IMG/VR virus record: IMGVR_UViG_3300021959_005813
Coordinates: 1-46,104 of that record
Reading direction: 5' to 3' (one strand)
Source: a virus
DNA: 46,104 nucleotides
Made by a program: the position numbers and the translations under genes. The notes under the pieces are model-generated. The model saw only the letters and a program-made list of their open reading frames with translations. It was not told where the DNA came from and made no database searches. Positions 1 to 20,303 of the stretch are shown piece by piece (the stretch's first letter is position 1; the number at the start of each line of letters is the position of its first letter).

Positions 1-783
1 ATGGGAAGAACATTTGAAAGGGCAATACCTTTTATTTGTGTAGATGAAGCATTTGCAGTAGAACTTCCTTCAGTATTAAAACTGATGGAACTACCACCAG
101 CTACAACAATGCCTGTCGTTGCAGTTTATGGATTTACAGATAAGACAGGACAAAGAAAAGCAATGGACAATATTGCATCGTTCTCTACAGCTGTTACACA
201 AGGTGCAACAGAGTTATTGATAGATGCACTTAAGACAGCTGGAAACGGAAAATGGTTTAGAGTTGTTGAGAGACAAGGTATTGATAACCTTGTTAGAGAA
301 AGACAAATAATTAGGTCGGGTCGTCAAGAGATTGCAGATGCAACAGGACAAGACCCACAAGGATTACAACCCTTATTATTCGCAGGTATGATAATTGAGG
401 GGGGTATAATTGGTTATGATACAAACCTACAATCAGGTGGACGAGGAGCTCGGACATTTGGTATAGGTCTTAGTAGAATGTATCGTAAGGATGCAGTTAC
501 AGTATCAGTGAGAGCTGTATCTGTATTAACTGGTGAGGTTTTATTAAATGTCCAAACCACTAAAACTATATTATCATATGGTGGAAGTGGTGACGTATTT
601 AGGTTCTACGAACAGGGAACACAATTAATTGAATACGAAGACGGTGTGGGTAATAATGAGTCAGTGACATACGCAACTAGAGCAGCTATTGAAGCTGCAG
701 TATACGAACTGATACTCCAAGGTTCAGTAAGGGGTTATTGGAACATAGAGAGTATCGAACAAAACGGAGAGAAAAATGAATAA
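1..783 (+). CDS. csgG: CsgG-like curli secretion pore (5' end may lie outside window)
   Basis: CsgG is the outer-membrane lipoprotein that forms the nonameric pore for curli subunits (type VIII secretion). The 260 residues follow E. coli CsgG closely: VAVYGFTDKTGQRK, the FSTAVTQGATELL helix, VVERQGIDNLVRERQIIR, the IIEGGIIGYDTNLQSGGRGAR transmembrane hairpin region, and TTKTILSYGGSGDVFRF. The first base of the window is the A of an ATG. No lipobox-bearing signal peptide is visible (the only early Cys, in PFIC, fits poorly), so the true start and the acylated Cys probably lie upstream. The last 8 nt overlap the start of the curlin-repeat gene, so the two should be cotranscribed. CsgE and CsgF are not in the window. 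Family assignment is secure; the start is not. Confidence 0.92.
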   Translation: MGRTFERAIPFICVDEAFAVELPSVLKLMELPPATTMPVVAVYGFTDKTGQRKAMDNIASFSTAVTQGATELLIDALKTAGNGKWFRVVERQGIDNLVRERQIIRSGRQEIADATGQDPQGLQPLLFAGMIIEGGIIGYDTNLQSGGRGARTFGIGLSRMYRKDAVTVSVRAVSVLTGEVLLNVQTTKTILSYGGSGDVFRFYEQGTQLIEYEDGVGNNESVTYATRAAIEAAVYELILQGSVRGYWNIESIEQNGEKNE

Positions 784-1510
784 AATTTATGTTTTATTTA
801 CTACATTATTTTTTATATTAAGCACAACTCTCTCGGCACAGGCGACTGATGATAATGAAGTTAATATAACACAAAGTGGTGATACACTTTCACTTTATAT
901 TGATCAACTAGGTTATGGTAACAAAATTGGTTTGAACGATTTTTCAAGTGGTTCATCTGCTTCACCTATAACAGGTAGTAGTTTATCATTTAATATCGAT
1001 CAAATAGGTAACGAGAACTTATTATTCGGAACAGTTACAGCAGATAGTTCAACATATAATTTGTTGTTCACTGGGGACAGTAATAGTTTTGATTGGTTGA
1101 TAGGAGACACAGGTTCATCTGATTCTTCTACAATTGATTTAGATTTTACAGGAGATTCCAATATCTTTGATTTTGATCAAGGAACGTTCTTTAGTGCAGA
1201 GAGATTGGATTTTGACATTACCTTATTGGGTAGTTCAAATACTTTTGATGTGGATGTTGAGACAGACGATGTAATATGGAATTTCGATATTACAGGAAGT
1301 AGTAATAATATTAACACTCTACAAAAGGATGGAGCATATCAAGAGATTAACTTTACTCTTAGTGGAGACAGTGCTGATGTTGATATCAATCAATTATCAG
1401 GAACATGTCCTACAGGTGTTTCATCATGTAAGGGTATTATTACACTCGACATAACTTCAGACAATGCAGTTATACAGATCAATCAAAAAGACTCAGCTAA
1501 CGATAGTTAG
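776..1510 (+). CDS. Curlin-repeat secreted protein 1 (CsgA/CsgB-like)
   Basis: This is a 244-aa protein with an N-terminal signal peptide (hydrophobic core about residues 5-20, cleavage near AQA). Degenerate curlin repeats follow: VNITQSGD, YIDQLGYGNK and NIDQIGNEN match the I-x-Q-x-G-x-x-N pattern of amyloid curli subunits. The middle replaces the Q-G rungs with GDSN/GSSN turns (GDSNSF, GDSNIF, GSSNTF, GSSNNI), still compatible with stacked beta-strand-turn units. A Cys pair (C-x6-C) lies near the C-terminus, as in the second curlin gene. The ATG overlaps csgG and is preceded by a GGAGA ribosome site. It is probably exported and secreted by the CsgG-like pore; whether it is the major fibre subunit or a nucleator cannot be told. 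Confidence 0.82.
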   Translation: MNKIYVLFTTLFFILSTTLSAQATDDNEVNITQSGDTLSLYIDQLGYGNKIGLNDFSSGSSASPITGSSLSFNIDQIGNENLLFGTVTADSSTYNLLFTGDSNSFDWLIGDTGSSDSSTIDLDFTGDSNIFDFDQGTFFSAERLDFDITLLGSSNTFDVDVETDDVIWNFDITGSSNNINTLQKDGAYQEINFTLSGDSADVDINQLSGTCPTGVSSCKGIITLDITSDNAVIQINQKDSANDS

Positions 1511-2606
1511 TGTTCTCTTCTCCTTTGGGTGTTTTGCAAACGACCCCATTGGAGAAGTAGAAGAGTTTACGGGAATAGGTGCATTACTACGTAGTGGTGA
1601 AACCATAGAGAGTAACACTGGAACAGATGTGGCTCTTTATGATGAAGCTAAGACGGGTAATGGACGTATGTTAATTCGTTTTTTGGATGATGAAGAACTT
1701 GCACTCACTGAAAACACTTATGCATATATTGACGAGGCATACTATGACCCTGACCCATCTTTATCAAGAATGTCTATACAGATGGTTAGAGGAACAGCTA
1801 GATTTGCATCAGGTCAGGGTGCAAAGATACGTAAGGCAAATATTAATGTGCAAACACCAACTGCACAGATCACTATTCGTGGAACTAATTTCACCACCAC
1901 AATAGATGAATTAGGACGATCATTGATTGTTCTTTTACCCGATGAGGACGGAGTGACACCCTCAGGTGAAATTGATGTAACAAATGATTCAGGAACAGTT
2001 ACACTAACTGAAGCCTATCAAGCTACAATGGTTGCAACACTAGAGAACCCACCAACTTCTCCAGTGGTAATTCAAAATGTAACATTATCAATGATTGATA
2101 ACATGTTTATTGTGAATCCACCAACTGAAGTTCGTCAGGCTATAGAAGAACAGGCTAGGGGTGATCTCGAACAGGATTCAGGAATACTGGATGTGGACTT
2201 TTTAGAGTTTAATGAGTTAGAAGGAGATGCCCTGGCTGACACTTCAGAAAATTTAGAATACTCTGAATTAGATATTGATTTTTTAAATGTCGATTTTTTA
2301 GTAGACCTTTTGGATGTCGTAGAAGAATTAGAAAGAACTAAAGAAAGTCTACGAGATCAACAAGAAGGTCAGTCAGGTCAGGTTGCATTAGTAAATGCAT
2401 CTATAGGATTCAACTCAGACTCACAATACAATATCTTTTTAGAAGATCAATACATAGTATTCTATAGAGAAATAAACGGAAAGATACGAATAAAATTACA
2501 ACAATCAGCTAATGTGAAAATCACAACAAATGTCGAAGGTTATGTCGGAGACATTAAACTAAATGGTGGGGATGATTCAATAATCTTCATCACTCAATTC
2601 AACTAA
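1464..2606 (+). CDS. Secreted FecR-domain protein
   Basis: This 380-aa protein has a signal peptide (basic RSIKK, then a hydrophobic stretch ending near CFA). It is followed by a FecR-type domain: VRGTARFASGQGAKI and INVQTPTAQITIRGTNF are hallmark strands at about residues 108-145. Classical FecR proteins carry a cytoplasmic anti-sigma domain and a membrane helix. Here neither is present, so this is a periplasmic or secreted beta-solenoid protein rather than a sigma regulator. The middle (about residues 225-300) is acidic and rich in repeated D-F-L motifs (VDFLEF, DIDFLNVDFLVD). The start overlaps the curlin gene by 47 nt and is chosen because it supplies the signal peptide. Its place between two curlin genes suggests an assembly, anchoring or accessory fibre role (inference). 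Confidence 0.75.
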   Translation: MQLYRSIKKTQLTIVSVLFSFGCFANDPIGEVEEFTGIGALLRSGETIESNTGTDVALYDEAKTGNGRMLIRFLDDEELALTENTYAYIDEAYYDPDPSLSRMSIQMVRGTARFASGQGAKIRKANINVQTPTAQITIRGTNFTTTIDELGRSLIVLLPDEDGVTPSGEIDVTNDSGTVTLTEAYQATMVATLENPPTSPVVIQNVTLSMIDNMFIVNPPTEVRQAIEEQARGDLEQDSGILDVDFLEFNELEGDALADTSENLEYSELDIDFLNVDFLVDLLDVVEELERTKESLRDQQEGQSGQVALVNASIGFNSDSQYNIFLEDQYIVFYREINGKIRIKLQQSANVKITTNVEGYVGDIKLNGGDDSIIFITQFN

Positions 2607-2623
2607 TAAATAAAGGATAACAT

Positions 2624-2794
2624 ATGAAAATATTTTTAGATATAACTGCATGGCTTACAAAATTTTTTGATTGGCATGAAAGACGATGTTGGTCTTTTGC
2701 AAATATGTTCAAACTAGATTGGTATGCAATGTGGTGGATTGCATTTTTTGAGGGCATAGTGTTTACACTAATATGGACATGGATTTTAAGTTAA
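2624..2794 (+). CDS. Small membrane protein, 56 aa
   Basis: This short ORF is preceded by a good ribosome site (AAAGGA, 7 nt before the ATG). The 56-residue product is rich in Trp (WLTKFFDWHERR, then WYAMWWIAFFEG), and its last 25 residues form one clear membrane helix ending TWILS. It overlaps the start of the second curlin gene by 22 nt, as is usual in this operon. I do not recognise a family. Its position between the FecR-like and curlin genes suggests an inner-membrane accessory of the curli cassette, but only by association. Confidence 0.6.
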   Translation: MKIFLDITAWLTKFFDWHERRCWSFANMFKLDWYAMWWIAFFEGIVFTLIWTWILS

Positions 2795-3498
2795 AAAGAG
2801 ATACTTCACTTCTATGTGTAGGATTTATTATTCTACTCTCATATTGTTCGCTTGCATTTGCAGACAACGAAATTACCATCGATCAAACTGGTGGGGATAA
2901 CTTCGAACTTACTGTTGACCAAATCGGTGTTAAAAACAAAATTAAAATGTATGATGCATACTCATATGTCAATGGTGCAGATATATCATTGTATTTTTAT
3001 CAACACAATGATGGAACATATCAAAACACCATAGACCTATGGCACTTAGATGGAACCAACAACACTATTCGATGGGGACAAGGTGGTAAGTTGGATGATG
3101 CAGCTGACACCACATTTTACTACGATGGGAATGAAAGTGGTGGTCACTATGCTAATTTTGATATACACGGAAACTATAACAATATTGTAGGTTGGCAGGC
3201 AAACTCAGGTTCAGGAGCTCACACATATAATCAAATGATCTTTAGTAGTTACAATGATGTCTATGTTGAGCAAAGAGGTAATGGTGATAAAACGATTAGT
3301 CTTACCACATACAATGACTACAATGACATTCAACTAATTCAAAAAGGAACTGGACACACTGCATCAGTAAGTCTAAGTGGAACCGACCCTACCACCTTGA
3401 ATCTACTACAACAGGGTTCAACATCACAATCTTACTCACTCTCACAAAACTGTGCTACAGTTGGTGGTTGTTCAGTTACAGTTACACAAGGACAATAA
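2773..3498 (+). CDS. Curlin-repeat secreted protein 2 (CsgA/CsgB-like)
   Basis: This 241-aa protein has a signal peptide ending near LAFA-DNE. The first repeats are canonical curlin rungs (ITIDQTGGDN, LTVDQIGVKN). They are followed by longer Asn/Gly/Tyr-rich strand-turn units (GTYQNTIDLW, GTNNTIRW, HGNYNNIVGW, SSYNDVYVEQRGNGD, NDIQLIQKGTG) and a C-terminal Cys pair (NCATVGGC) before VTVTQGQ. It is a paralog in style of the gene at 776-1510. An ATG two codons further in (2779) is an equally good start. Probably secreted through the CsgG-like pore and part of an extracellular amyloid. The aromatic-rich middle differs from E. coli CsgA and could be a binding surface. Confidence 0.8.
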   Translation: MDMDFKLKRDTSLLCVGFIILLSYCSLAFADNEITIDQTGGDNFELTVDQIGVKNKIKMYDAYSYVNGADISLYFYQHNDGTYQNTIDLWHLDGTNNTIRWGQGGKLDDAADTTFYYDGNESGGHYANFDIHGNYNNIVGWQANSGSGAHTYNQMIFSSYNDVYVEQRGNGDKTISLTTYNDYNDIQLIQKGTGHTASVSLSGTDPTTLNLLQQGSTSQSYSLSQNCATVGGCSVTVTQGQ

Positions 3499-3501
3499 CT
3501 C

Positions 3502-4122
3502 ATGCCATGTTGGAGTTACGAGAATCCGTTTTATAGTCAAAAATCTTTCAAGTTATATTATACTGAGTCATCTTTAATAGACGAAGATGGTAGAACAGTT
3601 ATGATGGATTGGGAGAAACCTGTTATGAAGAAAGCATCAGAGGTCATAACAGTAAATGGTGGTGATATCTTAAACATAGGTTTTGGTATGGGTATTGTTG
3701 ATACTTATATACAAGAAACAAATCCAAATTCTCACACCATCATTGAATCACATGAAGATGTAATTAACTACATGAAAGAAAATGGTTGGGAAGATAAATG
3801 CAATTGTGTTTATGGAAGATGGCAAGACAATCTAAATATAGGCAAGTTTGACGGAATATACTTAGATACTTGGAGAGAAGAAAGAGTTTCTCATATACCT
3901 GAGTTATTAGATAACTGTTTAAAAGTTGGTGGTGTGTTCTCAATGTGGTATCAAGATTGGGAGTTTACACAACTAAAACTCTCAGAAGATTATGAGATTT
4001 CATATACACATGTTAAAAATGATAATCTCATACCTGAGAAACAATATCAAGGTGGTGGTAAATACATAGATACAAATTTAGATATTATAGTAGTCCCTAT
4101 AGTGAAAAGAATAAAATGCTAA
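3502..4122 (+). CDS. Guanidinoacetate/arginine N-methyltransferase-like SAM enzyme
   Basis: This is a 206-aa class I SAM-dependent methyltransferase. The order VMMDWEKPVM (about residues 33-42), ILNIGFGMGIVDTYIQ (SAM-binding loop, about 55-70), HTIIESHEDV (acidic ribose-binding end of strand 2), YGRWQDNL and KFDGIYLDTW matches the guanidinoacetate N-methyltransferase/Rmt2 family point by point. Those enzymes methylate guanidino nitrogens of small molecules or protein Arg. There is no signal peptide, so it acts in the cytoplasm. It starts 3 nt after the second curlin gene and overlaps the cyclase by 7 nt, so it belongs to the same transcript. The substrate is unknown. A compatible-solute, Arg-modification or signalling role are all possible; family assignment is good, exact reaction is not. 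Confidence 0.72.
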   Translation: MPCWSYENPFYSQKSFKLYYTESSLIDEDGRTVMMDWEKPVMKKASEVITVNGGDILNIGFGMGIVDTYIQETNPNSHTIIESHEDVINYMKENGWEDKCNCVYGRWQDNLNIGKFDGIYLDTWREERVSHIPELLDNCLKVGGVFSMWYQDWEFTQLKLSEDYEISYTHVKNDNLIPEKQYQGGGKYIDTNLDIIVVPIVKRIKC

Positions 4123-5963
4123 ACGTGTATAGTTGGAAGACTGTTCTTGTAACTATTGCACTACTCTTTGGTCTCAAAGTTTGGTCACCCTATCTTGTTG
4201 AAAATATAGAGTGGAGTTGGTTTGACTATCTTCACTCAACACACGAAACAGAAAAATCAGATAATATTGTCTTAGTCAATATAGACGAAAAGGCAATAGA
4301 GAAATACGGTCAGTATCCATGGCCAAGAGATATCTACAGAGACCTACTCTTAGATTCACACTACACTAACACACATGTAGTAAACATTGTGTTTAGTGAA
4401 CCCGATAGATTTGGGGGAGATGTTGCACTTGCAGAAGGGTTAGTAAATCGATTAAGTGTTATTGCATCTGCACCAACATCACAAACTACAAAGGGTTCTG
4501 CACCTTATGTGGGAACTGCAATTGTAGGGGGTGGTAGACCTCAAGATTACATTTGGAACTTCACAGGTATCACTGCACCTATTCAAGTGTTACAAGATAA
4601 CACATACGGTGTCGGTGTTACAGTCTCAACACCACCTGTCACAGGAACACCTAACTTTGATGGAACGGTTCGTTCTGCACCACTTTTAGTTTATGCAAAC
4701 GAACAAGTATATCCGTCCATTACACTTGAAACACTTCGTGCATATTTTGATCAACCCTCTTACCAACTGAGAGTAACAGAAGGTGTCGGAGTTGAGTGGG
4801 TCAGAATGGGAAGAGAACAACCGATCACTACAACTCCAACAGGAGATGTTATGATTTCATATTGGACTGAATTTGATTCAATCTCAGCAGCTGACCTTAC
4901 AACCAGTGATCTGAAAGATAAGATTCTGATTTGGGGGTTGACAGCTGAGGGTTTGAATAATCCAGTTTCAACTCCAATGGGAGTAAAGTATCCCCACGAA
5001 GTTCAAGCCTCATTACTCCATACCGTCTTGAAAGGAGTTCAAATACAACAATCCTACTATCTTGAATTAGCATCTCTTGCTCTTCTATTGGTTTGTCTTT
5101 TAATAGTGTTGGTAGTGGTTTACACACTTCCCACAGCTGTTGCGGGGATAGTGAGTCTAAGTATTGTTGGACTTCAGGTGGGTTTAGGTTATATGAGTTT
5201 CTCTTCGTATCTCTTTCTCTTCGATACTTTCTACTCATCGATTGCCTCCTTAGTAGTGTTTGGACATGCATCCTTCAACAAATACTATGTAACGTATCAA
5301 CTCAAGGAACAAATTAGGAAGCAGTTCCAAAAGTATTTATCTCCTGATATGGTTGACCAACTTGCAAAGAATCCTGAGTTATTGAAACTTGGTGGAGACA
5401 GAAAAGAACTAACCTTTATGTTTATGGATATTTGTGGGTTTACACCAATCTCAGAACACTACAAGAATAATGATGACCCTGAGGGGTTAGTTGAATTAAT
5501 CAATAAATACTTAGACACAATGACTAAGATCATTCTCAGTCGGGGTGGAACCATAGACAAATATATGGGAGATTGCATCATGGCGTTTTGGAATGCCCCT
5601 TTAGACTGTGAAGATCATGCTCAAAAAGCAGTAGAGGCTGCAAAAGAAATTGTTCAAGCATCTGAAATACTTAATCAAGAATTCTCTGAACAAGGTCTTC
5701 CCCCTATTCGTGTTGGTATTGGTATCAACACAGGTGAATGCATTGTCGGAAACATGGGGTCAGAACTTAGATTTGACTATTCCGTCATTGGAGATGCCGT
5801 CAACCTTGCATCTAGACTCGAAGGACAGACTCGCAATTACGATGGGGTGGACGTGTTGTTATCGGAAAGAACTTATCTTGCATGTTCAGACATCTCATTT
5901 AGACGAGTCGATAAAATCAAAGTTAAAGGAAAGTCAGAAGAGATTACAGTCTTTACCATATAA
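4116..5963 (+). CDS. Membrane CHASE2 sensor - class III nucleotide cyclase
   Basis: This 615-aa protein has an N-terminal membrane helix, then a CHASE2 extracytoplasmic sensor domain (VLVNIDEKAIEKYGQYPWPRD near residue 50, characteristic). Three closely packed membrane helices follow at about 310-390, and a class III adenylate/guanylate cyclase domain occupies about 400-615. Metal ligands are present (D of FMDICGF near 437, D of YMGDCIMAF near 485). So are the purine-contacting Lys of IDKYMGD, the Asp of FDYSVIGD, and the transition-state Asn/Arg of AVNLASRLEG, so it should be active. The Lys/Asp pair favours ATP, hence cAMP. It overlaps the methyltransferase gene by 7 nt. A membrane-receptor cyclase in a phage is unusual; it could raise host cAMP and alter surface or biofilm behaviour (inference). 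Confidence 0.9.
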   Translation: MLNVYSWKTVLVTIALLFGLKVWSPYLVENIEWSWFDYLHSTHETEKSDNIVLVNIDEKAIEKYGQYPWPRDIYRDLLLDSHYTNTHVVNIVFSEPDRFGGDVALAEGLVNRLSVIASAPTSQTTKGSAPYVGTAIVGGGRPQDYIWNFTGITAPIQVLQDNTYGVGVTVSTPPVTGTPNFDGTVRSAPLLVYANEQVYPSITLETLRAYFDQPSYQLRVTEGVGVEWVRMGREQPITTTPTGDVMISYWTEFDSISAADLTTSDLKDKILIWGLTAEGLNNPVSTPMGVKYPHEVQASLLHTVLKGVQIQQSYYLELASLALLLVCLLIVLVVVYTLPTAVAGIVSLSIVGLQVGLGYMSFSSYLFLFDTFYSSIASLVVFGHASFNKYYVTYQLKEQIRKQFQKYLSPDMVDQLAKNPELLKLGGDRKELTFMFMDICGFTPISEHYKNNDDPEGLVELINKYLDTMTKIILSRGGTIDKYMGDCIMAFWNAPLDCEDHAQKAVEAAKEIVQASEILNQEFSEQGLPPIRVGIGINTGECIVGNMGSELRFDYSVIGDAVNLASRLEGQTRNYDGVDVLLSERTYLACSDISFRRVDKIKVKGKSEEITVFTI

Positions 5964-6270
5964 AGAACCTGAAATCTTCAATGAACAAACTCTTTTTTGG
6001 GTTCTGCAACTTTTAGATATTCTTACGACTATTGAGGGTATGAACTACAGTTGTGTTTATGAAACAAATCCTCTACTACCTAGAAGACCAACTACAAGAG
6101 ACCTATTAGAACACAAAGCATTATGGTTAAGTTGGATTCCAGCTGTTCAAAATGCAGGTTATCCTGATTGGATATGGAGACCTGCTAACACAATGATGAA
6201 GGGTGTAATTACAAACAATCTTCTAGTGTTAGAAAATGTAAAAAACAATCCAAATTGTAAAAAAAATTAA
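5839..6270 (+). CDS. Small membrane protein, DUF5658-like; start uncertain
   Basis: The part after the cyclase stop is clearly coding: a hydrophobic stretch LFWVLQLLDILTTIEGM followed by ETNPLLP and further membrane-like segments ending near residue NPNCKKN. L-D-x-x-T-T with a downstream (E)xNPLL is the pattern I associate with small DUF5658-type membrane proteins. The start is unresolved. An ATG at 5839 lies inside the cyclase gene, a TTG at 5650 would add a signal-like stretch but overlaps by 314 nt, and an ATG at 6040 would remove the conserved helix. No good ribosome site favours any of them. Function unknown; it ends the curli/cyclase transcript. Confidence 0.45.
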   Translation, partial: TMGWTCCYRKELILHVQTSHLDESIKSKLKESQKRLQSLPYKEPEIFNEQTLFWVLQLLDILTTIEGMNYSCVYETNPLLPRRPTTRDLLEHKALWLSWIPAVQNAGYPDWIWRPANTMMKGVITNNLLVLENVKNNPNCKKN

Positions 6271-6366: not shown

Positions 6367-6783
6367 ATGACTATCTTTGATGATATCTATGGGAAATCAT
6401 TTCCCTTCGCAATCGGGTTCGACAGAACCTTATCCCTACTAGAAAGAGCTTCTCAAGTTCCTTCTGTAAACTACCCACCCTATAACATTGTTAAAGTAGA
6501 CGATGAAATCTATCGTGTAGAAATGGCAATTGCAGGGTTCAAGAAAGAGAATGTCTCAATCACTAAAGAGAAAGAGATATTGACTATTGAGGGTAAAGTT
6601 GAAGACAAGACTGAGACAGAGTTCGTTCATAAAGGACTTGCATCTAGAGCCTTCAAAAGATCGTTCACCCTTGCAGAAGAAATTGTTGTAGAGGGTGCAA
6701 CACTTGAGGATGGTATTCTAGTGATTACTCTTAAGAGAGTGATTCCTGAAGAAAAGAAACCTGTTTCTATCAAAATTTCTTAA
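6367..6783 (+). CDS. hsp20: Small heat-shock protein Hsp20 (IbpA-like)
   Basis: This 138-aa protein is an ATP-independent holdase chaperone of the alpha-crystallin family. The N-terminal YGKSFPFAIGFDRTLSLLE resembles IbpA. The alpha-crystallin domain runs from YNIVKVDDEIYRVEMAIAGF to LEDGILVITLKR, and a C-terminal I-x-I motif (IKI) for oligomer contacts is present. AAGGAG lies 8 nt before the ATG. Length is normal for the family. Hsp20 is a common auxiliary gene in marine T4-like phages, where it may protect folding of virion or host proteins during infection. It has its own promoter and is monocistronic or at the head of a short unit. Confidence 0.95.
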   Translation: MTIFDDIYGKSFPFAIGFDRTLSLLERASQVPSVNYPPYNIVKVDDEIYRVEMAIAGFKKENVSITKEKEILTIEGKVEDKTETEFVHKGLASRAFKRSFTLAEEIVVEGATLEDGILVITLKRVIPEEKKPVSIKIS

Positions 6784-6790
6784 AACCCTA

Positions 6791-6820
6791 TTGACGATGT
6801 GACTCTACTTGTGATATAGT
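6791..6820 (+). promoter_or_regulatory. sigma70-like early promoter for peroxiredoxin gene
   Basis: TTGACG at 6791-6796, 18-bp spacer, TATAGT at 6815-6820, directly downstream of the hsp20 stop and preceded by AAAACCCTA. The spacer resembles those of the promoters at 40289 and 41217 (ATG then TC-ACTT). Confidence 0.68.
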
Positions 6821-6852
6821 AGAGTTACATTTATTATATGATGGAGTATATT

Positions 6853-7356
6853 ATGTTTAATCCACAAATAGGAGATCGACTACCTAATGTTGTCATGCCA
6901 ACTCGTGTAGCTGGTGAATGGGTTAATCTGAACACACAGGAACAGTTTGCAGGAAAGAAAATTATCATCTTTGCACTACCTGGCGCATTTACACCAACCT
7001 GTTCTTCTTTTCAGTTACCTGGCTTTGAATCTAATTTTTCAAAGTTCCAAGAGAAAGGTATTCAGGAGATTTACTGTTTATCTGTAAATGACTCGTTTAC
7101 TATGAATGCATGGTTTGATGGTCAAGGAATCCAAAATGTTCGTCCACTACCTGATGGTAACGGAGAGTTCACACATCTAATGGGTGCAAGTGTTGAGAAA
7201 TCAAATCTTGGTTTTGGAATCCGATCATGGAGATATGCAATCGTTGTTAACGACAATGTGATTGAAAAGGTATTTGTAGAGGAAGGATTTGGTGATAACA
7301 TTGAAAACGACCCTTACGAAGTTTCATCACCTGAAAATGTTTTAAAAAACCTCTAG
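6853..7356 (+). CDS. Peroxiredoxin (Prx5-like thiol peroxidase)
   Basis: The product (167 aa) has a thioredoxin fold and reduces H2O2 or alkyl hydroperoxides. PGAFTPTCSSFQLPGF near residues 43-58 contains the P-x3-T-x2-C peroxidatic motif, and the surrounding order (IGDRLPN, KKIIIFALPGAFTPTC, YCLSVNDSFTMNAW, ...WRYAIVVND) is that of the Prx5 subfamily. ATG at 6853 is preferred over the upstream ATGs at 6838 and 6841 because GGAG at 6843-6846 is correctly spaced and the peroxiredoxin N-terminus begins there. It stands next to hsp20 with a separate promoter, which suggests a phage-borne stress pair. The reductant is not evident; the phage glutaredoxin at 39983 is a possible partner (inference). 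Confidence 0.92.
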   Translation: MFNPQIGDRLPNVVMPTRVAGEWVNLNTQEQFAGKKIIIFALPGAFTPTCSSFQLPGFESNFSKFQEKGIQEIYCLSVNDSFTMNAWFDGQGIQNVRPLPDGNGEFTHLMGASVEKSNLGFGIRSWRYAIVVNDNVIEKVFVEEGFGDNIENDPYEVSSPENVLKNL

Positions 7357-7382
7357 TATTCGCGTGCTAAATACTGTATAAT
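7353..7382 (+). promoter_or_regulatory. Early promoter of the 7-deazaguanine operon
   Basis: CTAGTA at 7353-7358, 18-bp spacer, TATAAT at 7377-7382, preceded by AAAACCT. The same CTAGTA-N18-TATAAT layout recurs before the primase gene at 34514. The -10 ends 7 nt before ATG 7390, which implies a leaderless or nearly leaderless mRNA. Confidence 0.6.
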
Positions 7383-7389
7383 GAATACT

Positions 7390-7824
7390 ATGTATCAAGT
7401 GATAAAAACATATGGTAATGACAGAGGTCTGTCCACTGCATTTAGACAGTGGAAAGCAGAAAGTCATTGTCGTTTAATTCACGGATATAGTCTAGGATTC
7501 AAAATAACGTTTCAAGCTGAAACACTTGATGCAAGAAACTGGGTCATCGATTTCGGTGACCTAGGTTCTCTCAAGAAGTTCCTTGAAGATACTTTTGATC
7601 ACACGACTGTAGTCGCAGAAGATGACCCACACCTTGAGAAATTCAAATCTTTAGATGAGTGTGGTATTCTTAATCTTGTAACACTACCCCATACTGGTTG
7701 TGAAATGTTTGCAAAACATGTCTACGAATTTTGTGTCAAAGAGTATCAGAACTTTAGAGTCAAAGTTGTAAGTGTAGAATGTTTTGAACATGGAGCAAAC
7801 AGTGCTGTATTCGGAAATTTTTAG
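7390..7824 (+). CDS. queD: QueD-like 6-carboxytetrahydropterin synthase
   Basis: QueD converts dihydroneopterin triphosphate to 6-carboxytetrahydropterin, the second step toward preQ0. This 144-aa protein shows the family order: AESHCRLIHGYS (active-site Cys and zinc ligand region, about residues 24-35), RNWVIDFGDL, FDHTTVVAEDDP, a C-terminal PHTGCEMFA and the catalytic EC-x5-NSAVF. The usual HGH zinc pair reads HGY here, which I recall as typical of phage members. An ATG at 7381 overlaps the -10 box, so ATG 7390 is preferred. It heads a unit with queE, queC and folE, overlapping queE by 35 nt. Confidence 0.88.
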   Translation: MYQVIKTYGNDRGLSTAFRQWKAESHCRLIHGYSLGFKITFQAETLDARNWVIDFGDLGSLKKFLEDTFDHTTVVAEDDPHLEKFKSLDECGILNLVTLPHTGCEMFAKHVYEFCVKEYQNFRVKVVSVECFEHGANSAVFGNF

Positions 7825-8620
7825 AAGTATCCAAGGTGAGGGACACTACACTGGAGTCCCAACCGTATGGTTAAGATTCTTTGGTTGCAACCTAGAATGC
7901 AATGGATTTGGTCAAAAGAATCCAAAAGACCCATCTACATACGAACTTCCCTTTCAAACAATAGATATCAAAGATATCACAGAGATTGAAAAACTACCAG
8001 TTTTTAAATATGGTTGTGATTCATCCTATTCATGGTCAAAGAAGTTCAAACATTTACAAAAAAACAAAACCCCTGTAGAAGTTGCAGAGGAACTTCAATC
8101 TCTAATTACATCTAACAATTATCATATTGCATTTACTGGTGGAGAACCACTACTACCAGCTGCACAAAAAAACATTGTCAAGATAATGGAGTTGATGAGA
8201 CCCTATAACATTACTATTGAAACTAACGGAACACAAAAGCTAAAACAAGAATTTCAAGATTACTTTTCTTCATATGAGAAAGAATTATTCTTTTCGATTA
8301 GTCCAAAAATCTTTGGAACTAGTGGAGAACAGAATGCAATAAAACCTGATGTTGTTGCAACATATCATAATTTATCTGAACATGGTCAGTTAAAATTTGT
8401 TTGCAATGGTAGTGATGATTCTTGGGATGAAATTGAAAATGCAATTAAAGACTTTAGAAGTGTTGGAGTTAATTATCCAATATGGATTATGCCTGTAGGT
8501 GCATTAGAAGAAACACAAAAAGATAATGCAGCTTTGATTGCAGAACAAACAATGAATAGAGGATACAATGTATCCGCAAGAGTTCATTGTTACATATGGG
8601 GTAATAAGATCGGAACATGA
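7790..8620 (+). CDS. queE: QueE-like 7-carboxy-7-deazaguanine synthase (radical SAM)
   Basis: QueE is the radical SAM enzyme that rearranges 6-carboxytetrahydropterin to 7-carboxy-7-deazaguanine. SEIFRSIQGEGHYTGVPTVW (residues 8-27) is a classic QueE start, FTGGEPLL is the SAM-binding GGEP motif, and IETNGT is conserved. The cluster Cys spacing is unusual: C33-x3-C37 as normal, but the third Cys is probably C76 in YGCDSSYSW, so about 38 residues separate Cys 2 and 3 instead of two. ATG 7790 is preferred to the TTG at 7784. Overlaps queD by 35 nt and queC by 4. Confidence 0.88.
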   Translation: MEQTVLYSEIFRSIQGEGHYTGVPTVWLRFFGCNLECNGFGQKNPKDPSTYELPFQTIDIKDITEIEKLPVFKYGCDSSYSWSKKFKHLQKNKTPVEVAEELQSLITSNNYHIAFTGGEPLLPAAQKNIVKIMELMRPYNITIETNGTQKLKQEFQDYFSSYEKELFFSISPKIFGTSGEQNAIKPDVVATYHNLSEHGQLKFVCNGSDDSWDEIENAIKDFRSVGVNYPIWIMPVGALEETQKDNAALIAEQTMNRGYNVSARVHCYIWGNKIGT

Positions 8621-9363
8621 GTGTAATGATCACAAATCAAAAAGAACAACCACGGAATAAGACTGTGTTATTATACAGTGGTGGTATGGATTCTTTAATA
8701 ATTGATCACCTTCTTAAACCCGATATTCTTTTAAACATTAGTATGAATTCTGCATACGATAAAAGAGAACGCAGATCATTTGAACAAGACAACAGGATGA
8801 TCTACTTAGATGATGTTATTAACTTAGGTAGATATGAAAGAGACGATGCAATAGTTCCAAACAGAAATGCACACTTGATTTTACTTGCATCACACTACGG
8901 AGAAACTATTTGGTTAGGAAGTGTGAGTGGAGACAGATCATTTGATAAAGATGAAAAGTTTTATTTAAGAATGGAAGACCTTCTTAATCATATGTGGCAA
9001 GAACAACATTGGACAGAAGAAAGAAAATTTAGTATTAGTTCACCCTTTAAAGACAAGACAAAAACAGAATTGGTTAGAGAATACATTAATAATGATGGGG
9101 ACATCAATTTGTTGTGGAAATCATATTCTTGTTATGAAGGCAGAGAGAAACATTGTGGTCAGTGCAAGGCTTGTTTTAGAAAGTGGGTTGCAATGACCAA
9201 TAACAAATTGGATATCGATAACTATTGGGACAATCCACCTTGGGAAGCAAACTGGCTTGACAGTATCAAGGATGGAGTGTATAATGGTAGTTATCGTGGT
9301 AAAGAAGATAGTGACATACTCAAAGCTATGGTAATGAGTGAAAATGGAGAATGGAAAATATGA
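8617..9363 (+). CDS. queC: QueC-like 7-cyano-7-deazaguanine (preQ0) synthase
   Basis: QueC uses ATP and ammonia to convert 7-carboxy-7-deazaguanine to preQ0. The pyrophosphatase loop LLYSGGMDSLI (about residues 19-29) and the four-Cys zinc site in SCYEGREKHCGQCKACFRKW (about 172-191) are diagnostic. The product is 248 aa, close to usual length. ATGA overlap with queE and a 13-nt overlap with folE indicate translational coupling. Confidence 0.92.
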   Translation: MSVMITNQKEQPRNKTVLLYSGGMDSLIIDHLLKPDILLNISMNSAYDKRERRSFEQDNRMIYLDDVINLGRYERDDAIVPNRNAHLILLASHYGETIWLGSVSGDRSFDKDEKFYLRMEDLLNHMWQEQHWTEERKFSISSPFKDKTKTELVREYINNDGDINLLWKSYSCYEGREKHCGQCKACFRKWVAMTNNKLDIDNYWDNPPWEANWLDSIKDGVYNGSYRGKEDSDILKAMVMSENGEWKI

Positions 9364-10004
9364 AATATGACAGTAGTCTAGGTCAAAGGGTTAAGAATCA
9401 TCTAACTGAATTAGGTGTAGAAACTCCTATGAATGGTGGGAGAGACCACAACGTTGATGTTGTTGCCGAACACTTTAAGGTAATTATGGAAAAGATTGGG
9501 TGTGATATGCATGATGATTCAATGCAGGATTCCCCACATCGTGTTGCATCAATGTTCTTAGATGAACTTTTCATAGGTATGAATTATGATAAGTTTCCAA
9601 AATGCACAACCTTCACCAATAAGTTTTCATTTGACTCAATGGTAGTTCAAAAGAACATCATTGTAAAGTCAGTATGTGAACATCACTTTCAAACTATCTA
9701 TGGTAAATGTCATGTTGCATACATTCCTACAGGTAATGTTGTGGGTCTTTCAAAACTAAACAGAGTGGTAGACTTCTTTGCACGAAGACCTCAAGTGCAG
9801 GAAAGACTAACAGAACAAATCTACAGAGCTCTACAGTTTATTTTAAAAACAGAACAAGTTGCAGTATACATGGAGTGTGATCATTTCTGTGTGAAGGCAA
9901 GAGGAGTAGAGGATGTGAACTCATCTATGGTGACAAGTAGATTGGGTGGTGCATTCTTTGATGATGATAAGACTCGTGCAGAGTTCATGCAGATAGTAAA
10001 ATGA
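9351..10004 (+). CDS. folE: GTP cyclohydrolase I (FolE)
   Basis: FolE converts GTP to dihydroneopterin triphosphate, the first step of the 7-deazaguanine and folate pathways. Family features: DSPHRVASMFLDELFIGM, the zinc/catalytic segment SVCEHHFQTIYGKCHVAYIP, VVGLSKLNRVVDFFARRPQVQERLT, and CDHFCVKARGV followed by TSRLGG. At 217 aa it is full length. With queD, queE and queC it supplies every step from GTP to preQ0. Starts inside queC; a second ATG at 9360 is also possible. Confidence 0.96.
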   Translation: MENMKYDSSLGQRVKNHLTELGVETPMNGGRDHNVDVVAEHFKVIMEKIGCDMHDDSMQDSPHRVASMFLDELFIGMNYDKFPKCTTFTNKFSFDSMVVQKNIIVKSVCEHHFQTIYGKCHVAYIPTGNVVGLSKLNRVVDFFARRPQVQERLTEQIYRALQFILKTEQVAVYMECDHFCVKARGVEDVNSSMVTSRLGGAFFDDDKTRAEFMQIVK

Positions 10005-10240: not shown

Positions 10241-11529
10241 ATTTCGAATATGTGATCTCAGGTATGACCATGGGAACGGGAGACTTGTATTACAAGAAAC
10301 CTGTTCTTTTACCATATACAACAGTCTTTAATAACAAGATTAAAGATATGGATAACAAATACCCTAATCAAAATATTTCAATGTTGTTTAACTCACATTG
10401 TGAACCTAAACATGGAGAATGTATTCGTGAGTTGATGCCTTCATGGCACCAACACTTTGCAGACTCAGGGGGTCTTCAGTTATCTAGAACTAAGAAGGGT
10501 CTCACAACTGAAATTAAAGATGGAATCTACAGACATCAAGCTCAATATTCCGATGTTGCAATGATCTTTGATGACATCCCTACAGAATTTGATGGGTCTA
10601 ACAGTGGATGGTCTATGAAGACTTCTACAGTTGGACGAAGATTTGCAAGAGAACTAATTAAAGAAAAGGCACAATCAACACTTGAGAATTGTAAGAGACA
10701 GATTGAAGTGTTTACTGAAATGGAATCTAATGCAAAGATATCCCTTATTGTGCAAGGACAGGATTTAGATTCATACAGAGAATATATTGAAACTATTGTA
10801 AATGGATTAACTGATGAAGAGTTAAAGTCTTGTTTAGGTATTAGTCTTTCATCTGCATGTTCAGGTATTGGATTTGTTAATCGTGCAGAAATGATTTACT
10901 CTGTAAAAGAGTTTCAGATTCCATTAGAACTTAAAAAGAACATACACTTATTAGGTGTTGGGTCACATGAAATGTTATCTCCATTTTTTGTTTCACCTGA
11001 ATACTTTGACTTTGTTGAAAATGTTTCTTATGATTCATCTACTCAAGCTAACTCATGGTTCTTTTCAAGATACAGAGACACTATGTGGGTCAACACTGAG
11101 TTGGAGAGTCCTGCAAGAACATTGAAAGGATATGAAGATATTTACAGAAATCAGTTAGTTCCTGTATTCTCAGAAATATATGAACTAAATCAGTTCTACT
11201 TTAAACAATTTAATATTCCTAATTTTGATTTTCTAATACAAGAATGCACTAAATGGTCTATTGCAAATGAAGGAAAGGATAGATTGTTTAATTCAGATAA
11301 AGGTGAAGATGGTGCAAAACTCCTACCATTCTTTTGGCAAATGCAAGTGGTAGAGAACTTTATGACTCGTGTAAATGATATGGTCAATAATCCATCAAGT
11401 ATTGACAATACAGGTCTTGCACACATTAAGGATTATAAACAGTTTCAAAATGATTGGTTACCACGACAAGGAACTCAAAACAAATTAGAGGAAACCTTTG
11501 CAGGTAGTTTAGATGGGTTCTTTAACTAA
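10237..11529 (+). CDS. dpdA: DpdA-like tRNA-guanine-transglycosylase-family DNA modification enzyme
   Basis: This 430-aa protein is related to tRNA-guanine transglycosylase. It shows ADSGGLQLS (D76, corresponding to the active-site Asp region), MIFDDIPTEFDG, LIVQGQDLDSYREY and a SYDSSTQAN segment. Phage DpdA proteins exchange guanine in DNA for a 7-deazaguanine base (preQ0 or derivatives). The gene follows folE/queDEC in one operon, so the base made upstream is probably inserted into phage DNA to resist host nucleases. RNA cannot be excluded as target, but the context of a complete phage pathway to preQ0 favours DNA. No QueF reductase is present, so preQ0 or a non-QueF derivative is the expected base. 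Confidence 0.82.
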   Translation: MNFEYVISGMTMGTGDLYYKKPVLLPYTTVFNNKIKDMDNKYPNQNISMLFNSHCEPKHGECIRELMPSWHQHFADSGGLQLSRTKKGLTTEIKDGIYRHQAQYSDVAMIFDDIPTEFDGSNSGWSMKTSTVGRRFARELIKEKAQSTLENCKRQIEVFTEMESNAKISLIVQGQDLDSYREYIETIVNGLTDEELKSCLGISLSSACSGIGFVNRAEMIYSVKEFQIPLELKKNIHLLGVGSHEMLSPFFVSPEYFDFVENVSYDSSTQANSWFFSRYRDTMWVNTELESPARTLKGYEDIYRNQLVPVFSEIYELNQFYFKQFNIPNFDFLIQECTKWSIANEGKDRLFNSDKGEDGAKLLPFFWQMQVVENFMTRVNDMVNNPSSIDNTGLAHIKDYKQFQNDWLPRQGTQNKLEETFAGSLDGFFN

Positions 11530-17127: not shown

Positions 17128-17135
17128 TATAAATA
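17128..17135 (+). promoter_or_regulatory. T4-like late promoter of the thermonuclease gene
   Basis: An exact TATAAATA just downstream of an intrinsic terminator and 7 nt before ATG 17143. No ribosome site fits in between, so the message should be leaderless or nearly so. Confidence 0.65.
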
Positions 17136-20228: not shown

Positions 20229-20303
20229 GCCCTGTTCGTCTAGTGGTTAGGACACAAGGTTTTCATCCTTGTAACAGGAGTTCGATTCTCCTACAGGGTG
20301 CCA
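20229..20303 (+). tRNA. tRNA-Glu (TTC), CCA encoded
   Basis: Acceptor stem GCCCTGT pairs with ACAGGGT (one G-T), followed by discriminator G and encoded CCA. D-arm TCTAGTGGTTAGGA, anticodon stem CAAGG/CCTTG with loop TTTTCAT giving anticodon TTC, and T-arm with TTCGATT loop. Complete and canonical. Confidence 0.95.

Follow-up and report, generated by a model that had tools for sequence, protein, structure and literature searches.

Curli cassettes that include FecR and cyclase genes are already known in phages. Pelagiphages of two families were reported in 2022 to carry, as a type VIII secretion module, CsgF, CsgG, CsgA/B, FecR, a second CsgA/B and adenylate cyclase (PMC9599517); phage CsgF and CsgG have also been published elsewhere (PMC7029224, PMC9004378), and in Burkholderia an operon that regulates biofilm has a secreted FecR protein next to a CHASE2 sensor (PMC5192318). 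Here we analyze such a cassette in IMG/VR virus record IMGVR_UViG_3300021959_005813, positions 1 to 46,104 (the whole of this 46,104-nucleotide (nt) stretch is called the window). The record is a 46-kb virus contig with T4-like replication genes (DNA polymerase, UvsX, and a DnaB-like helicase), and the best cultured matches listed for its DNA polymerase, in Synechococcus phages, were only 48% identical. Taken as a whole, the locus is very probably best explained as that of a T4-like marine phage with an alphaproteobacterial-type curli operon whose cyclase gene codes, in this clade, for three proteins. Relative to the pelagiphage module, with which it shares gene order, the clade adds a 56-residue membrane protein, the open reading frame (ORF) ORF8, and an antisense gene, while a methyltransferase is found in this record alone. 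We consider it likely that the cyclase gene is triple-coded, with a nested gene for a secreted protein in its +1 frame and, on the opposite strand, a late-promoted gene that arose de novo by overprinting and whose product has its own fold, perhaps acting as a switch that ends the curli and cyclic AMP (cAMP) programme. A first-pass annotation of this DNA overlooked both of these hidden genes, and these conserved cassette genes appear to be unannotated because they overlap the cyclase. The features concerned are the following:

4116 to 5963, plus strand: CHASE2 membrane adenylate cyclase with intact catalytic residues (Pfam CHASE2, 1.1e-32; Guanylate_cyc, 3.4e-22)
4897 to 5238, minus strand: antisense gene nested in the cyclase gene, 113 residues, ATG at 5238 (stop avoidance, third-position suppression, frame-specific constraint, predicted fold)
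5245 to 5249, minus strand: Shine-Dalgarno (SD) sequence GGAGG of the antisense gene (SD core common in carriers)
5334 to 5341, minus strand: GATAAATA, a late-promoter-like element upstream of the antisense gene (conserved in relatives; ATAAATA enriched in phage HTVC008M)
5650 to 6270, plus strand: ORF8, DUF5658-like with a signal peptide, its first ~310 nt overlapping the cyclase gene in the +1 frame (open frame, third-position suppression, frame-specific constraint)

The antisense gene spans the transmembrane-coding part of the cyclase gene and appears undescribed, and we found no description of overlapping genes in the curli cassette in the open-licence literature. One antisense frame was open for a median of 318 nt compared with 95 nt in shuffles, with P<0.05 in ~80% of loci, against 0–10% elsewhere in the cyclase gene. 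Synonymous identity was raised in carriers over cyclase codons 271–420, and third-position divergence fell from ~0.54 to 0.22–0.31 at codons 281–360 while controls stayed at ~0.5; in this region first positions diverged as much as third positions or more. Changes that are synonymous in the antisense frame made up 0.294 of the total, versus 0.120 at the corresponding place in controls, and no other frame rose as much. The gene thus combines an open frame beyond that of shuffles, suppressed synonymous change in its host gene, constraint in the alternative frame, and start signals, as expected of an overlapping gene. As a control on the method, the third-position test recovered the known overlaps at the FecR and curlin 2 starts, and in CsgG, FecR, and the curlins it revealed no hidden overlaps beyond the known gene junctions.

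A separate scan for the antisense gene found 198 contigs, and in all 80 that were fetched it lies opposite the cyclase with an ATG and an SD core. Under a stricter window the SD core was present in 39/45 antisense carriers, compared with 6% of control minus-strand ATGs. Further upstream there is a promoter-like signal. The T4 late promoter is TATAAATA, and ATAAATA, which matches its core, ranked among the most enriched 7-mers in gene-upstream sequences of HTVC008M within a 46-kb region, where it preceded 12 genes in their own orientation and 3 in the reverse one. In the window ATAAATA occurs 16 times on the plus strand versus 5.7 expected, and three times on the minus strand versus 7.4 expected (no enrichment), and one of these three sits at −103 relative to the antisense ATG. 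Among distinct relatives, NATAAATA was found upstream of the antisense gene in 72 of 77, with 68 of the occurrences at exactly −103, and the cyclase codons there are nearly fixed in carriers (Tyr407 as TAT in 33/33 and Leu408 as TTA in 32/33) versus 39/60 and 13/60 in non-carriers. We take the element as supportive, not decisive, since shared ancestry and the cyclase protein both contribute to its conservation. On the plus strand, ATAAATA stands 14–28 nt before ORFs, e.g., at 17129, 20513, 27281, and 45575, as it does before HTVC008M structural genes, and these copies are probable late promoters.

The antisense proteins align well, sharing the signature LSPxELWExCRP...SRIVVFELLxRR...LELRGDTLHPLGLKLD. 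An AlphaFold2 model from 29 aligned sequences gave the block of residues 21–90 a predicted local distance difference test score of 85–93, with helices and a short hairpin. The protein matched no known family (Pfam returned only scattered single matches, and PDB sequences one match with an E-value of 1.5), and fold searches with Foldseek and VIA-align gave no clear match, the best VIA-align hit (Z 4.1) being uninformative. No standalone homologs of the antisense gene were found in the 80 viral contigs fetched, the collected loci, the phage collection, or PHROGs. On the cyclase tree the carriers form nearly a single clade, with 3 label changes, a pattern compatible with a single gain and subsequent losses. 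The analysis thus shows constraint in two frames, avoidance of stops, translation signals, and a confident predicted fold.

ORF8, which starts in the +1 frame inside the cyclase catalytic domain and is predicted to carry a signal peptide, also appears undescribed. Our analysis corrects the earlier reading of this last ORF of the run (TTG at 5650), which is a real gene with its first ~310 nt inside the cyclase gene. Counting back from the cyclase stop, the +1 frame is open for a median of 305 nt in ORF8 carriers versus 20 nt in non-carriers, and its length was never matched by synonymous-codon shuffles (0/300) in 41 dereplicated carriers. Fourfold-site identity over cyclase codons 551–600 was 0.66–0.69 in carriers compared with 0.38–0.39 in non-carriers, third-position divergence dropped to 0.21–0.30 at codons 541–600, and changes synonymous in the +1 frame were 0.21 of the total versus 0.107 in controls. 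An open +1 frame longer than shuffles produce and suppressed synonymous sites are, again, what an overlapping gene would show. In most carriers the start is an ATG followed by a signal peptide, e.g., MKNYLLSICLLLMSVLASA. The C-terminal part resembles DUF5658 (PF18902), with 34/36 relatives matching at E≤1 (best 1.7e-6), while ORF8 of the window scored 15.0, below the curated cut-off of 25.2; this half is confidently helical in the predicted structure, and a fold search for ORF8 returned no match. In one locus (L194) an ORF8-related gene follows the cyclase gene with little overlap.

The following account of when and how the genes are expressed, of fibre formation, of contact between FecR and CHASE2, and of what the hidden proteins do is inferred. 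The curlins would exit through the CsgG/CsgF pore to form a surface fibre, while periplasmic FecR would be read by the CHASE2 sensor and the intact cyclase would make cAMP in the infected cell. As the first-pass annotation suggested, the cassette might aggregate infected cells or block superinfection. An internal +1-frame start in the cyclase gene would yield the DUF5658-like ORF8 protein with its signal peptide. Late in infection, the overprinted gene on the opposite strand, which probably has a late-type promoter (ATAAATA) and a ribosome-binding site of its own, would give a soluble, mostly helical protein of ~113 residues, and its transcript would also oppose the cyclase mRNA. The hidden proteins might tune or end the cAMP and fibre output of the cassette, which is a guess.

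Several observations weigh against a triple-coded cyclase gene as we describe it. In the antisense region the fraction of changes synonymous in the +2 frame also rose (0.178 versus 0.086), with that frame not unusually open; part of the conservation of the promoter-like element is forced, because it coincides with the cyclase motif KYLSP; the ORF8 start in the window is a TTG, and an SD-like motif was present at only 19/40 ORF8 starts; some relatives keep only one of the two hidden genes; and both genes were absent from cultured phage records, being known only from uncultivated phages. The promoter-like element and the strong DNA conservation would fit equally well an antisense element, RNA or DNA, that codes for no protein and acts by repressing the cyclase mRNA; however, only a single antisense frame shows stop avoidance, changes tend to be synonymous in it, the ATG and SD are conserved, and a confident protein fold is predicted, and we consider such an element quite unlikely. 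Low divergence in both regions could alternatively be a by-product of constraint on the cyclase protein or of recent recombination, given the relatedness of the carriers and the conservation of the cyclase across the ORF8 region. Against this, non-carriers with a similarly conserved cyclase show no third-position drop, recombination alone would not make first positions of the antisense region diverge as much as third positions or more, and shuffles that keep the cyclase protein fail to reproduce the open frames; of the explanations weighed here we hold this one the least probable. That most loci have no ATG near the cyclase stop could suggest that ORF8 is a C-terminal extension of the cyclase made by programmed frameshifting and has no start of its own, but the +1 frame is open ~300 nt upstream, nearly all carriers have a start codon and signal peptide there, and we saw no shared slippery site at the cyclase stop, which makes this frameshift fusion very unlikely.

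A further alternative concerns the cassette as a whole: the phage CsgG/CsgF pore may serve lysis timing or uptake, as proposed for Melnitz (PMC9004378), and not fibre export. A cultured methylophage with the cassette showed no clumping (PMC9004378), which would fit a pore of this kind. Two curlin genes are nonetheless retained in order across loci, and the Melnitz cassette is not without fibre genes, because its record annotates two curlin-repeat proteins; we judge a lysis or uptake pore unlikely.

The remaining genes of the cassette were as the first-pass annotation had them, with CsgG, two curlin-like proteins, FecR, a small membrane protein, a guanidinoacetate N-methyltransferase (GAMT)-like protein, and the CHASE2 cyclase agreeing in both ORF positions and families. 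The first 6.3 kb is a single plus-strand gene run, from CsgG at the contig edge through ORF8:

1 to 783, plus strand: CsgG, the outer-membrane curli pore, truncated at its N-terminus by the contig edge (Pfam, 2.4e-54; solved CsgG, 2e-47)
776 to 1510, plus strand: curlin-repeat protein 1 with a signal peptide (Pfam Curlin_rpt, 5e-4; phage curlin profile against 8c50, 1.3e-7)
1464 to 2606, plus strand: secreted FecR-domain protein, without an internal transmembrane segment by hydropathy scan (Pfam, 1.9e-8; PHROG 37870, 1.7e-66)
2624 to 2794, plus strand: sm56, a 56-residue membrane protein (homologs at the equal position in tens of loci; hydrophobic C-terminal segment)
2773 to 3498, plus strand: curlin-like protein 2 with a signal peptide (aligns with the second curlins of HTVC008M and Melnitz; position kept in most loci)
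3502 to 4122, plus strand: GAMT-like methyltransferase, a passenger (solved guanidinoacetate N-methyltransferase, 2.9e-10)

By these Pfam and solved-structure matches the truncated CsgG belongs to a phage type VIII (curli) cassette. Its start is indeed missing from the window, as had been suspected, the N-terminus of relatives being longer and in some cases carrying a lipobox (LLLLSGC). Of CsgE and CsgF, both suggested as possible upstream genes, CsgF is immediately upstream of CsgG in relatives and may be so here, and CsgE was absent from the annotations of the HTVC008M and Melnitz cassettes. The Curlin_rpt match of curlin 1 is just below the family cut-off, and curlin 2 had no Pfam curlin match. 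A profile built from six phage curlins matched the solved curlin-repeat protein 8c50 and only weakly the CsgA entry 8enq (0.08); judged by these sequence profiles, a curlin-repeat fibre protein of the phage cassette type is predicted here. At their C-termini, the second curlins of three phages have in common a cap that contains a cysteine pair, and they end in VTVTQ (in the window, the C-terminus of 2773 to 3498). The record of Melnitz (L005:8728-9447 and 10506-11522) annotates two curlin-repeat proteins, whereas the paper states that csgA and csgB are lacking (PMC9004378). We also considered the FecR C-terminus as a curlin rung; the ending GGQENAITINQTN in HTVC008M was suggestive, but we rejected the idea because the probabilities from comparing profiles were only 4.7% and 11.6%.

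The Pfam matches together with all six catalytic residues (two metal Asp, Lys, Asp, Asn, and Arg) place the cyclase of the window among class III adenylate cyclases with a CHASE2 sensor, and these residues are kept in 92–93 of 93 aligned cyclases. In the Melnitz cyclase (L005:11538-13589) Ser replaces the transition-state Asn in the GDxVN motif, and therefore this enzyme may be less active or of another type. The cyclase frame appears split or interrupted in L102, L108, and L317, by decay or assembly error. In the Burkholderia operon (PMC5192318) the secreted FecR likewise adjoins a CHASE2 sensor and there is a link to biofilm, but its CHASE2 protein is a histidine kinase and curli genes are lacking. 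By analogy with that operon, we infer that FecR here is the periplasmic partner of the CHASE2 sensor and not an iron regulator. FecR stood beside a CHASE2 cyclase without curli genes in 3/30 sampled alphaproteobacterial loci with short flanks, a count that is suggestive only.

CsgG and cyclase scans gathered 226 viral loci, and gene order was assessed in 219 loci, those from cultured phages and bacteria among them, each with three or more cassette genes. The order is established as nearly invariant: all 219 loci had their cassette genes on one strand and 217/219 had them in order, and the HTVC008M and Melnitz records have the order of the published pelagiphage module. Conserved order across viral genomes had been set as a check on the first-pass annotation, and scattered, unlinked homologs were not seen. 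Where loci were found through the cyclase alone and had enough upstream sequence, CsgG, FecR, and a curlin lay upstream in 49/50. This linkage strongly supports the cassette as one conserved unit, except for the GAMT-like partner, which among the loci fetched is in the cassette only here. On three alphaproteobacterial contigs of metagenome-assembled genomes (two Caulobacteraceae and one Hyphomonas; L232, L233, L235), CsgF, CsgG, curlin(s), FecR, and CHASE2 cyclase follow in the phage order, with neither hidden gene detected. Since the operon is found on bacterial contigs it is not a phage assembly, and the equal gene order indicates that FecR and the cyclase came with it. A fourth bacterial match, from a Flavobacteriaceae metagenome-assembled genome, resembled the phage copies much more closely and may itself come from a phage. 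Because this record begins within CsgG, no histidine kinase can be seen in it.

The methyltransferase is a passenger outside the conserved unit, contrary to its earlier description as a cassette partner; among the loci fetched, it was within the curli cassette in this record only. Its similarity to GAMT (3orh) covers the S-adenosylmethionine-binding core at residues 30–147, suggesting a GAMT-like enzyme. A relative with 97% identity adjoins a DNA polymerase gene and a 40% relative is found in an unrelated location; relatives at L002:3170-3781 and L003:121-762, one of them beside DNA polymerase, are outside any curli cassette. Directly downstream of the cassette, as in many relatives, are HSP20 and peroxiredoxin genes (6367-7356), followed at 7381-10004 by consecutive genes for QueD, QueE, QueC, and GTP cyclohydrolase, a phage 7-deazaguanine pathway possibly used in DNA modification. 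Four tRNA genes (Glu, Thr, Ala, and Ser) are dispersed on the contig at 20229, 31254, 31787, and 45940.

Parallels to both hidden genes exist. Phage lambda Rz1 resembles ORF8 in being an exported protein whose gene is nested, in a different frame, within a second phage gene (Rz); ORF8 differs in having no lipobox, in resembling DUF5658, and in having a cyclase as its host gene. Antisense overprinted genes of E. coli O157:H7, e.g., pop, antisense to ompA (PMC7103648), and laoB (PMC5810103), are likewise protein genes embedded antisense for which overprinting was proposed. They are bacterial and have expression data behind them, whereas the phage antisense gene rests on comparison over many phages.

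The curli cassette is present in many uncultivated marine phages, and the hidden genes are new candidates for phage control of cAMP signalling and fibre export, a question that dates from the first report of the cassette. In the antisense gene, a bacterial virus offers a tractable example of a gene born by overprinting, for which related cyclases without it are natural controls, and third-position scans of phage genomes could uncover further hidden genes.

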